Of a stretch of DNA of 64,000 nt, positions 30,961-35,270 are shown one piece after another (position 1 is the stretch's first letter; the number at the start of each line of letters is the position of its first letter). The DNA comes from Selenomonas sputigena (GTDB taxonomy: Bacteria > Bacillota > Negativicutes > Selenomonadales > Selenomonadaceae): positions 529,808-593,807 of the forward strand of contig NZ_CP110383.1 of the NCBI RefSeq assembly GCF_026015965.1. Direction: 5' to 3'. The translations under genes and the position numbers were made by a program. A model generated the notes under the pieces. That model saw nothing but the letters and a program-made list of their open reading frames with translations. It was not told where the DNA came from and searched no databases.

Positions 30961-31025
30961 AGAAAGAGCGGCGCAAGGCGTACCGCGAGTATTCTGGCTG
31001 TGATTAGGGAAACGAGGTGTTTGCT

Positions 31026-31547
31026 TTGGGCAGATTCATGACAAGTGCGAAGAAGCCGAACAAGGATGGGATCAATCTGTTGGTGTCCATTCTCGTCTGT
31101 TATCCGGAGATCGGCATGGTGAGCTATGAACCGGAAAAGGAGGCTCTGTACTTCTCCTTCACCCTGACGAAGGTTCCTCCTCGGCAGGAATTCGAGGAGA
31201 CGGCGGCGTTTCTTGAGGAAAGTATTCTCACATACCACGACCTTGAAGGGTTGATTCCGGGGGAGATTGATTTTTCTCTCGAAGGACAGGGGAATACGGC
31301 GTTCTTTCGTGTCCTGCGCGATGTCCGCACGCTTTCCCGCGGCGAGATCGCCCTTCTGGCAGACCTCATGTACGAACGCTTCGGCGACGCACTCGTTTCC
31401 GATGAGACGCGCGACGGCTACGAGGAGGACAATTTTCTGCGTGAGGAGGCGATCGACCACATCATCGGCAGCCTCAAGGGCAGCCGCATGTCTGATCGCA
31501 TGATCGGCATCCGTGAGGAAGGCCGCGTCATGGTGTTCAATAAGTAA
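31026..31547 (+). CDS. Conserved-looking hypothetical protein between rny and ymdB
   Basis: A 173-residue soluble acidic protein without signal peptide or membrane helix. No family is recognised. The fold appears mixed: beta strands around IGMVSYEPEKEALYFSFTL and GEIDFSLEGQ, and helices around RQEFEETAAFLEES and REEAIDHIIGSLKG. TTG 31026 follows GAGGTG at eight bases; ATG 31038 is the alternative. It lies in the conserved Firmicute neighbourhood of rny, ymdB and spoVS, so a role in RNA turnover or cell differentiation is possible but unproven. Confidence 0.6.
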   Translation: MGRFMTSAKKPNKDGINLLVSILVCYPEIGMVSYEPEKEALYFSFTLTKVPPRQEFEETAAFLEESILTYHDLEGLIPGEIDFSLEGQGNTAFFRVLRDVRTLSRGEIALLADLMYERFGDALVSDETRDGYEEDNFLREEAIDHIIGSLKGSRMSDRMIGIREEGRVMVFNK

Positions 31548-32939: not shown

Positions 32940-33770
32940 GTGTCCAGCGATCTGCATACGCATACGTCATATTCCGACGGAAAGATGACGCCCGAGGAGC
33001 TTGTGGCGGCGGCGAAGGAAGCGGGGCTTCGCTACATCGCAATCACGGATCATGATACCGTGGACGGCGTCACGCATCTTTATGAGGAAGGGCTTTTGCC
33101 TGCGAAGGGCATCGGCATCATACCGGGCATTGAGTTCAGCGCCCATCATGAAAAGCGGGAAATCCATATCCTCGGCTACAATGTCGACATCTATCGCCGC
33201 GATCTCCTCGACCGCCTGAACGATGTGGGAGAGGCGCGTTGGAGTCGCTTCGCTGAGATGGTGGAGAAGCTGCAGGAGCTTGGCTACGGCATTACGGAAA
33301 CGGATGTGCTGAAGGTAGCAGGCACGAGCAAATCCATCAGCCGCTCGCACATCGGACGGGCTCTCGTGCTCAAAGGCTGTTTTTCCAGCGTACGCGAGGC
33401 GTTCGATGCTGTGCTTTCCAAAGGCCGTCCCGCTTATGTTTCACACTATCGCCTAGAGCCGGAAGAAATCGTCGCGCTGATCAAGAATGCGGGCGGTACG
33501 CCCGTCCTCGCTCATCCGAAGCTTGTCGGTGACGACGCGCTCGTCGAGCATGTGCTCGACCTCGGCATCGAGGGCATTGAGGCATTTTATCCGCAGCACG
33601 ATACGGTCGATACGCAGCGCTATCTCGGTATGGCGGAGCGCCGCCATCTGCTCGTGACGGGCGGCTCGGACTTCCACGGCTTTGCTTCGCGCTATCCGCA
33701 GGAACTTGGCATCTTCACGGTGGAGGATTCATTCGCGGAGAAGCTGTATAAGCCGAGAATGAATCTTTAG
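32940..33770 (+). CDS. PHP domain phosphoesterase (nucleoside bisphosphate phosphatase type)
   Basis: A 276-residue protein with the PHP metal-binding motifs DLHTHTSYSDG (residues 4-14), AITDHDT (around 36), PGIEFSAHH (around 66), HPKLV (around 193) and TGGSDFHG near the C-terminus. Proteins of this size resemble the YciV/RNase AM group, which act on 3',5'-nucleoside bisphosphates and 5' ends of RNA. This would fit the RNA-decay genes upstream. GTG 32940 follows GGGAGTGAGG. The precise substrate is inferred. Confidence 0.85.
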   Translation: MSSDLHTHTSYSDGKMTPEELVAAAKEAGLRYIAITDHDTVDGVTHLYEEGLLPAKGIGIIPGIEFSAHHEKREIHILGYNVDIYRRDLLDRLNDVGEARWSRFAEMVEKLQELGYGITETDVLKVAGTSKSISRSHIGRALVLKGCFSSVREAFDAVLSKGRPAYVSHYRLEPEEIVALIKNAGGTPVLAHPKLVGDDALVEHVLDLGIEGIEAFYPQHDTVDTQRYLGMAERRHLLVTGGSDFHGFASRYPQELGIFTVEDSFAEKLYKPRMNL

Positions 33771-33851
33771 AGAGACCGACTGTCCTTTTTGCAAGGATTT
33801 CGCAGGAAAATTCCCTCGCTTTAGTTTCTTAAAGAAGCAGGAGAGAAAGAT

Positions 33852-34685
33852 ATGGACGTCATAGCATTCGTAGGTCCGAGCGGCACAGGCAAGAGTCACC
33901 GCGCCTTGCTCGTGGCGCATCAGCATCAGGCGGACGCCATCATTGATGACGGCATCCTGATCAAGGACGGCAAGATCGTCGCCGGTTCTTCCGCCAAGAT
34001 GGAGAAGAGCAAAATCATGGCGGTGCGCCGCGCCATTTTCGTTCTGCCCGGACATGCGGAAGAAGTGCGTTCTGCTATCGCCGAGTGCAGGCCGCATCGC
34101 ATCCTCATCCTTGGGACTTCCGAGAACATGGTCTATAAGATCGTGCGCATACTGAAACTGCCGACGATCGAACAGATCATCCACATCGAAGACATCGCGA
34201 CGCAGCGTGAGATGCAAAAAGCGCGGGACAGCCGACTGAAGCAGGGCAAGCACATCATACCCGTTCCGACGATCGAGCTGAAGCCTCATGCTTCGGGCTT
34301 CCTCATCGATCCCATCCAGTCCTTTTTCCGCCGCAACCGCACGCGTCGCCGCAAACTCGGCGAGAAGTCCATCGTGCGCCCGGTGTTCAGCTATTATGGC
34401 AAGCTCATCATCGACGATCTGGCAATTCGCGAGATGGTCGTGCGCATCGTGCATGAGAAGGAATACATCTCGGAGGTCGGTTCTGTGCGCGTGCGCCACG
34501 TCTGGAAAGGCGACGAGGATCGCGGCCTTGAGATTTCCTGTTCCGTCGTGCTGACCTACGGCAGCCATATTCCGACACTCATCAAGGAGACGCAGCAGCG
34601 TGTGAGAACGAAGGTCGAATACATGACGGGACTTTTCGTGCGCGAGGTCGACATCATGGTGCAGGCGCTTTATATCGAAGCGTAA
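33852..34685 (+). CDS. P-loop NTP-binding protein fused to an Asp23/Gls24-like domain
   Basis: A 277-residue protein with a clear Walker A motif at residues 8-15 (GPSGTGKS), followed by a small alpha/beta domain (ILILGTSENMVYKIVRILKL). A basic linker RRNRTRRRKLGEKS (around 160-172) leads to residues about 175-277, which resemble Asp23/YloU proteins: YYGKLIIDDLAIREMV, then LEISCSVVLTYGSHI, and RVRTKVEYMTGLFVREVDI. Asp23-like proteins act in envelope stress or alongside metabolic enzymes. I do not recognise the fusion as a characterised protein. ATG follows AGGAGAGAAAGAT. Confidence 0.7.
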   Translation: MDVIAFVGPSGTGKSHRALLVAHQHQADAIIDDGILIKDGKIVAGSSAKMEKSKIMAVRRAIFVLPGHAEEVRSAIAECRPHRILILGTSENMVYKIVRILKLPTIEQIIHIEDIATQREMQKARDSRLKQGKHIIPVPTIELKPHASGFLIDPIQSFFRRNRTRRRKLGEKSIVRPVFSYYGKLIIDDLAIREMVVRIVHEKEYISEVGSVRVRHVWKGDEDRGLEISCSVVLTYGSHIPTLIKETQQRVRTKVEYMTGLFVREVDIMVQALYIEA

Positions 34686-34731: not shown

Positions 34732-34741
34732 CATCGAGAAG

Positions 34742-34782
34742 AAAGGCGCTCCCCTTACTCTTCGAGGGGGAGCGCCTTTTTC
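34742..34782. terminator. Bidirectional terminator overlapping the end of the glycosylase gene
   Basis: AAAGGCGCTCCCC and GGGGAGCGCCTTT form a 13-bp stem with A/T runs on both sides. The stop codon of the minus-strand glycosylase gene (34755-34757) lies in the loop, so the right arm encodes its last residues. Confidence 0.85.
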
Positions 34783-35270
34783 CATGCTTTTACGAGATCG
34801 TCGAAGCGCCAGCGCGCGTTGGCTGCGCTCGTCGAGGGCAGCGCATGAAAGGTGAGATCGTCGCGTTTCAGGAGCGACTTGTTGGCACGGCGAAAAGTAT
34901 CGGCCGATTTGCCGCCGTTCAGGCAGAAGGTGGAGAGGCGCGGATAATGCGCGAGGAGCGCGGTGAAGTCGTTGGGCTTTGCCGCGCGAATCGCTGAGTC
35001 CAAGCTGCCTTCGCGCTCGCATGAGGCGATGGAGTCCCAAAGCGCGATATGGTGGCGGAGCAGCATTTGAAGCCGCGCCGTATAGTCCTGCGGTGGCTCA
35101 CCGCCCTCCAACAGATACGCCATGAGCCGCCAGAAGCGATTCTGCGGGTAGGCGTAGTATTGCTGCGCCCTGAGCGACGCCGCGCCCGGCATTGAGCCGA
35201 GAATGATATGCGTACAGTTTGCGTCGATGCTCGGAGGAAAGCCGACGCAGGTGAAGGAAGAAGCGGGCAT
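34755..35270 (-). CDS. DNA-deoxyinosine glycosylase (uracil-DNA glycosylase superfamily)
   Basis: A 171-residue protein with the UDG-fold motif LGSMPGAASLRAQQYYAY (residues about 24-41), followed by PQNRFWRLM and a late LPSTSAANAR loop, as in the hypoxanthine-DNA glycosylase branch. It excises deaminated bases, hypoxanthine in particular, to start base-excision repair. ATG 35270 on the minus strand follows AAAGGAG. Its last codons, ending LPLEE, form one arm of the terminator. Confidence 0.82.
   Translation of the reverse strand: MPASSFTCVGFPPSIDANCTHIILGSMPGAASLRAQQYYAYPQNRFWRLMAYLLEGGEPPQDYTARLQMLLRHHIALWDSIASCEREGSLDSAIRAAKPNDFTALLAHYPRLSTFCLNGGKSADTFRRANKSLLKRDDLTFHALPSTSAANARWRFDDLVKAWKKALPLEE

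Follow-up and report, generated by a model that had tools for sequence, protein, structure and literature searches.

A conserved, uncharacterised fusion of a P-loop domain with an Asp23 domain in Selenomonas sputigena and its relatives

What might be the role of a protein in which a nucleotide-binding loop and an Asp23 domain are joined in one chain? The question is raised by a gene of Selenomonas sputigena (33852–34685, plus strand) lying in a stretch of DNA of 64,000 nucleotides, which was analysed as a whole and is hereafter called the window; its open reading frame starts with ATG and encodes 277 amino acids. According to excerpts from a 2020 paper, Asp23 of S. aureus is tethered to the membrane by AmaP and assembles into filaments, its loss induces cell-wall stress, and its molecular function was termed still unclear (PMC6954212). 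Excerpts from two further papers tie YqhY of B. subtilis to fatty-acid synthesis, as a proposed restraint of acetyl-CoA carboxylase (PMC5437119), and report YqhY to be essential in C. difficile (PMC12548448). A description of a P-loop/Asp23 fusion was not found among the titles and abstract beginnings listed by searches of open PMC papers, a source that leaves subscription papers mostly outside its scope.

A preliminary description of the gene had proposed a Walker A motif, a basic linker and an Asp23-like C-terminal half, and had pointed to RNA turnover or developmental switching on account of the neighbouring genes. The analysis reported here indicates that the fusion is more general than a local curiosity. 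The P-loop and a true Asp23 domain are confirmed, and a candidate nucleotide site accompanies them, while the linkage to RNA turnover or development is unsupported.

Two domains and a basic linker

The gene was delimited by its open reading frame, by Pfam and by a search of the phylum with a profile of the N-terminal domain. It is preceded by a Shine–Dalgarno-like AGGAGAG (33839–33845, plus strand), seen directly in the sequence, and followed by a strong hairpin resembling an intrinsic terminator (34740–34781, plus strand), with a stem of 17 pairs and then Ts. The hairpin overlaps the predicted end of a convergent open reading frame on the minus strand (34755–35270), no relative of which occurs near the fusion gene in 70 loci. 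The protein begins with a P-loop domain (residues 1–147; 33852–34292, plus strand), delineated from the alignment, from an AlphaFold2 model that is confident for residues 1–133 and from searches with this domain; a linker (residues 148–177; 34293–34382, plus strand) and the Asp23 domain (residues 178–277; 34383–34682, plus strand) follow.

The Walker A motif, GPSGTGKS, lies at residues 8–15 (33873–33896, plus strand), as had been proposed, and its key residues G8, G11, G13, K14 and S15 do not vary in any of 110 aligned sequences. Because this motif is invariant, the N-terminal domain is regarded as a P-loop domain. In the AlphaFold2 model of the whole protein, built from 15 sequences (mean pLDDT 71.8, pTM 0.51), it takes an alpha/beta form with four main strands and a hairpin, and residues 134–186 are of low confidence. 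The sole fully invariant acids, D32 and D33, followed by the equally invariant G34 (33945–33953, plus strand), stand at the end of strand 2 (residues 29–32 of the model) and are candidate Mg-binding or catalytic acids; P-loop enzymes of the kinase type are known to have acids for Mg or substrate at this place. Position 114, just after strand 4, is D or E in 96% of the sequences and, judging from the alignment, could be the Walker B acid. When the N-terminal domain was modelled alone the result was too poor to use (mean pLDDT 53), and fold searches with that model, with a best Z of 2.7, carry no weight for or against any fold; the VIA-align list obtained with the full model was filled by matches to the C-terminal domain only. 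A search of viral structures gave no match at E≤0.001, and sequence searches of the PDB returned P-loop-level or chance matches only.

The linker comprises an SG(Y/F)L-D-P-like hydrophobic stretch and then a basic patch, and is of low confidence in the model. Its length and sequence vary. Nevertheless, the basic character noted earlier holds: residues 145–172 carry a net charge of +6, and the region is net-positive in 46 of 50 members. An amphipathic membrane helix in the linker was considered and rejected, since just 7 of 50 members were more amphipathic there than 95% of shuffled sequences.

For the C-terminal half, too, the initial assignment stands. Pfam PF03780 (Asp23) matches residues 221–272 with 39.5 bits as against a gathering cut-off of 28 (E=8e-10). 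Among 50 diverse members, 49 match this profile at E≤0.1; the score is below the gathering cut-off in some relatives (e.g. at loci L085, L103 and L117), and the L117 member covers profile positions 3–106 of 108. Profile–profile comparison with hhalign aligned the domain with canonical Asp23 proteins over 88 columns (E=5e-19), which indicates that a whole Asp23 domain is present rather than a motif, and with the C-terminal domain of AmaP, represented by the matched stretches of AmaP proteins, over 86 columns (E=6.6e-18). The controls MiaA, RecA, DnaC-like and PHP each remained under 1% probability. Structure prediction had been suggested as a test of the Asp23 fold, and the model, with helix–strand–strand–helix–strand in residues 189–274, upholds that fold together with the profile–profile comparison.

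In VIA-align searches, the modelled C-terminal domain (residues 186–277; 34407–34682 of the window) resembled the cytoplasmic domain of the cation-efflux transporters MamM and YiiP, with a Z of 11.3 for MamM and, in the top eight rows, an rmsd of 1.8–2.5 over 77–81 aligned residues. As far as the model goes, this likeness to the C-terminal domain of CDF transporters shows a shared arrangement only.

The fusion carries an Asp23 domain but stands outside the canonical subtype. In a tree of 109 domains, Asp23 proteins (30 of 30, support 0.93), AmaP (28 of 29, 0.96) and the fusion (47 of 50, 0.81) formed separate groups. An 18-residue glycine-rich insertion is present in canonical Asp23 and absent from the fusion in the profile–profile alignment; a GMSGG-type string occurs in 1 of 110 fusion members, as against a GG in that region of 25 of 30 canonical proteins. 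The fusion likewise differs from the small, stand-alone glycine-loop subtype, all 128 matches of its N-terminal profile lying in frames of at least 269 amino acids. Its relation to AmaP is similarly partial. The C-terminal domains align without the insertion, and 41 of 50 members reach E≤0.1 with the AmaP model (NF033218), whereas the protein of the window scores 25.9 bits against a cut-off of 55, and its alignment to the model starts at position 85 of 166, leaving the first 84 positions unmatched. In their place, instead of the N-terminal membrane-spanning region of AmaP, the fusion has its P-loop domain. Among Asp23-domain proteins, the fusions form a conserved but uncharacterised branch of their own, the third after AmaP and the stand-alone Asp23 of YloU/YqhY type.

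Distribution and conservation of the fusion

The P-loop/Asp23 fusion is ancient and strongly conserved, occurs almost without exception as one copy, and is found, still uncharacterised, in many anaerobes of Gram-positive lineage. The searches covered phylum genomes, a named scan of close relatives, collections of plasmids, phages and viruses, and the controls of the family searches. Of 200 genomes of the class, 194 were positive at E≤0.001, as were 166 of the 168 of good quality; 193 genomes reached E≤7.2e-24. With a profile of the N-terminal domain only, 127 of 299 phylum genomes were positive, every match having E≤9.4e-47 and nothing falling between this value and the limit of 1e-8. A single copy was found in 126 of the 127; the exception, G349, has two, its assembly being fragmented and 7% contaminated. 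All 128 matches of the N-terminal domain lay in frames of 269–557 amino acids, and the fusion is therefore a fixed architecture; an N-terminal domain alone in a short frame was not seen among these matches in the 299 genomes. One homologue of 363 amino acids (locus L083, genome G378) bears a long C-terminal tail rich in Ala, Pro and Gly.

The named scan, which detects close relatives only and is silent on absence elsewhere, yielded 14 relatives, including Megamonas, Schwartzia, Selenomonas, Pectinatus, Avimonoglobus and a Clostridia genome. From these names and general taxonomy we take the class of the window to be Negativicutes and the loci outside it to be, presumably, Clostridia, with a named record for 1 of 39 outside loci (L069). 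The fusion had no relative in phage records or viral contigs, and plasmid records gave one match, to a 285-kb plasmid record of Monoglobus; the idea of phage or plasmid cargo was rejected on these grounds. Membership of a defence or phage family was likewise rejected, as neither PHROGs nor PADLOC gave a match to the protein at E≤0.01.

An alignment of 127 extracted proteins was reduced to 110 distinct rows after removal of duplicates, the window included. Invariant in all 110 are G8, G11, G13, K14, S15, A18, D32, D33, G34, K49, A61, F63, T89, S90, M93, L101, A124, R128, H134, P137 and G183; M1 was omitted from this list, the first residue having been set to M during extraction. All of these residues lie in the N-terminal domain except G183, which falls early in the Asp23 domain. 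Mean pairwise identity among 50 diverse members falls from 51% in residues 1–147 to 38% in the linker and 26% in the Asp23 half. With identity so distributed and the invariant residues nearly all in the N-terminal domain, it follows that the P-loop half is the conserved core of the protein, masked by the Asp23 label. Annotation, too, conceals the fusion: a public product name was seen for one relative, that of Monoglobus pectinilyticus, and it reads only Asp23/Gls24 family envelope stress response protein. The preliminary description had left room for a known family covering the full length. None appeared: no model of Pfam, NCBIfam, PHROGs or PADLOC spans the whole protein (50 members were also scanned in Pfam and NCBIfam), no NCBIfam model exceeds its cut-off for the protein of the window, for which AmaP is the best, and the relative's record is named after its Asp23 part only. 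Both domains are real, their fusion is fixed and rarely departs from one copy per genome, and the candidate nucleotide site does not vary.

Gene neighbourhood and co-occurrence

The neighbouring genes for RNase Y (rny), YmdB, SpoVS and a PHP phosphoesterase were each confirmed by Pfam in the window, the PHP gene (32940–33770, plus strand; PF02811) ending 81 bases before the fusion gene. Neighbourhoods were surveyed at the 70 of 127 loci that span 8 kb or more (31 in Negativicutes, 39 outside), with a reach of up to about 8 kb each way and with some loci cut by contig ends. Neighbouring open reading frames were called mechanically, so that some adjacent ones may be spurious, and families were identified by a Pfam scan of one representative each. 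At the 31 class loci, tblastn found PHP near 28, an open reading frame of 176 amino acids near 24, rny near 23, spoVS near 21 and ymdB near 18, all those listed being on the same strand. Clustering of the neighbour frames gave 26, 21, 23, 16 and 17, respectively, and placed PHP as the next frame upstream in 23 of 26 loci. No Pfam family matches the 176-residue frame (31017–31547, plus strand) at E≤1; it lies between rny and ymdB and encodes a conserved protein that is itself uncharacterised.

The neighbourhood originally described is thus common in Negativicutes, and it ends there: none of rny, ymdB, spoVS, PHP and the 176-residue frame was found within about 8 kb at any of the 39 outside loci, and no neighbour conserved across both sets was found in the 70 loci. 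Clustering also placed RecA near 10, MutS near 13 and MutL near 13 of the 31 class loci. Outside the class, a DnaD-type protein is encoded near 13 of 39 loci (on the same strand in 4 of the 13) and an IstB/DnaC-like ATPase near 10 of 39 (same strand in 3 of 10). Other outside neighbours vary, and include a MazF-like toxin and an OGG-type glycosylase (L088); in Monoglobus the order is rex, fusion gene, DNA glycosylase. At individual loci, a MazF-like gene lies just upstream on the same strand (L071, by Pfam; L076, by eye) or a DnaD-like gene just downstream on the same strand (L074, by Pfam; L085 and L093, in the same cluster as L074), with gaps of -41 to 53 bases.

Presence of the fusion was independent of both sporulation and AmaP markers in comparisons that ignore phylogeny, a limit that would weigh on a positive outcome. 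Spo0A was found in 108 of 127 genomes with the gene and in 142 of 172 without it (p=0.64); the link to RNA turnover or developmental switching, which the neighbouring genes had suggested, is therefore not borne out, being neither kept outside the class nor associated with Spo0A. For AmaP the numbers were 105 of 127 and 139 of 172 (p=0.76), and a replacement of AmaP by the fusion was rejected accordingly. In these counts AmaP was taken as present at E≤1e-12 (244 of 299) and Spo0A at about its curated cut-off (250 of 299), with negatives picked by eye from the tables. The genome of the window has genes for two canonical Asp23 proteins and for a single AmaP. One canonical Asp23 gene is followed directly by an AmaP-like gene (G000:C1:875310-876211), a pairing also seen in G011, G201, G215 and G216. 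No Asp23 or AmaP gene was noticed beside the fusion gene.

Candidate functions

The invariance of the P-loop residues and of D32, D33, K49, T89, S90, R128 and H134 in 110 sequences argues for an active site, and the question is of which kind. In Pfam, the N-terminal half of the protein of the window matched only P-loop families below threshold. Among 50 members, weak Pfam matches were to ABC in 43 (best E 2e-5), AAA in 33 (8e-6) and IPT in 26 (6e-6), and weak NCBIfam matches to gluconokinase in 13 and MiaA in 7; IPT exceeded its cut-off in 1 of 10 members scanned. In hhalign the N-terminal domain reached 96% with ABC (residues 2–45 only), 88% with DnaC-like proteins, 86% with MiaA (residues 2–90) and 69% with shikimate kinase, as compared with 8% for RecA and 2% for FeoB. 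Once the P-loop was removed, no profile, those of kinases included, rose above unrelated controls.

These data bear on the main rival explanation, according to which the protein would be a small-molecule or protein kinase or transferase of the P-loop kinase type, whose Asp23 domain merely oligomerises. The fusion does share with enzymes of the IPT, MiaA and gluconokinase kind an N-terminal Walker A, weak profile matches and acids at strand 2, off the conventional Walker B strand, and the MiaA alignment spans residues 2–90. However, ABC and AAA match as many members or more, ABC and DnaC do equally well in hhalign, the kinase signal does not outlast removal of the P-loop, and the mostly acidic position 114 leaves room for an ASCE-like Walker B; we consider this explanation possible but doubtful. 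Kinship with MiaA/IPT, which offered an attractive motif alignment, disappears in the same way and is kept as a lead only: the MiaA model detects the fusion gene in 4 of 40 genomes (E 3e-4 to 7e-4), the four relatives scoring 19.5–20.3 bits as against the curated cut-off of 148.65 (TIGR00174). HPr kinase has a characteristic spacing between the P-loop lysine and a DD pair, and was suggested by that spacing here; it was dropped, the window's genome having no PF07475 match at E≤0.001. The sole match of this genome to shikimate kinase (PF01202) lies elsewhere (G000:C1:1702779). Alternatively, the protein might resemble the GTPase Era, in which a P-loop switch is coupled to a KH-like alpha/beta RNA-binding domain. 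The general layout, a P-loop domain and a small alpha/beta domain, is shared, Era entries are the top Foldseek matches of the full model (E=1.3e-5) and rny is nearby in Negativicutes. Yet the TM-scores are only 0.21–0.24, the C-terminal domain belongs by sequence to the Asp23 family and fits the C-terminal domains of CDF transporters (Z about 11), and rny is missing from all 39 outside loci. Era carries NKxD for GTP specificity and GxxG in its KH domain; an NKxD/TKxD-like string occurs in 8 of 110 fusion sequences and a GxxG string in 4 of 110, so that an Era-like RNA switch, very unlikely on this evidence, was rejected on its motifs.

Two further explanations draw on the neighbourhood. The RecA, MutS, MutL, DnaD-type and IstB/DnaC-like neighbours, together with the glycosylases of Monoglobus and L088, would suit a housekeeping factor of DNA replication or repair with an incidental Asp23 domain, but near DnaD the gene mostly lies on the opposite strand and the neighbours vary from locus to locus, which makes such a role highly improbable. 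Even less can be said for a sporulation or developmental-switch factor acting in connection with SpoVS and YmdB. Their genes accompany the fusion on the same strand at many class loci, but at none of those outside; moreover, the gene is present in all ten class genomes among the 299, and these match the Spo0A model much more weakly (E about 1e-19 to 1e-23) than do genomes that exceed its cut-off. In view of the absent Spo0A association this link was rejected, and we give it the lowest probability of the explanations weighed here.

The explanation that we favour, tentatively and at somewhat short of an even chance, is that of an NTP-dependent enzyme or switch whose Asp23 domain docks it on the membrane scaffold of Asp23 and AmaP. 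The fusion would bind ATP or another NTP with Mg, through K14/S15 and the D32–D33 pair, and would probably hydrolyse the NTP or transfer its phosphate. The docking partners of its Asp23 domain may be Asp23 oligomers or AmaP beneath the membrane, where the nucleotide state of the P-loop half might regulate assembly of the scaffold or a partner enzyme. The co-residence of AmaP with the fusion in 105 of 127 genomes, and of two Asp23 proteins and one AmaP in that of the window, is consistent with docking. Against a dependence on this scaffold count the 22 of 127 genomes in which the fusion occurs without an AmaP match, and the lack of correlation with AmaP. The mostly unremarkable amphipathicity of the linker and a neighbourhood in which no Asp23 or AmaP gene was noticed also speak against the proposal; in addition, the divergence of the C-terminal domain could mean that binding to Asp23 has been lost, which counts against docking itself.

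It is tempting to go further and to see in the fusion the Asp23 family's first enzyme, a P-loop kinase or ATPase which, within the Asp23/AmaP membrane scaffold, senses nucleotide state so as to set envelope or lipid homeostasis, although we regard this bolder proposal as rather unlikely. If it were true, NTP would control a system of Negativicutes and many Clostridia in which Asp23 proteins form one arm. Being widely conserved and having an invariant candidate nucleotide site, the fusion provides an entry point to the function of Asp23 proteins.
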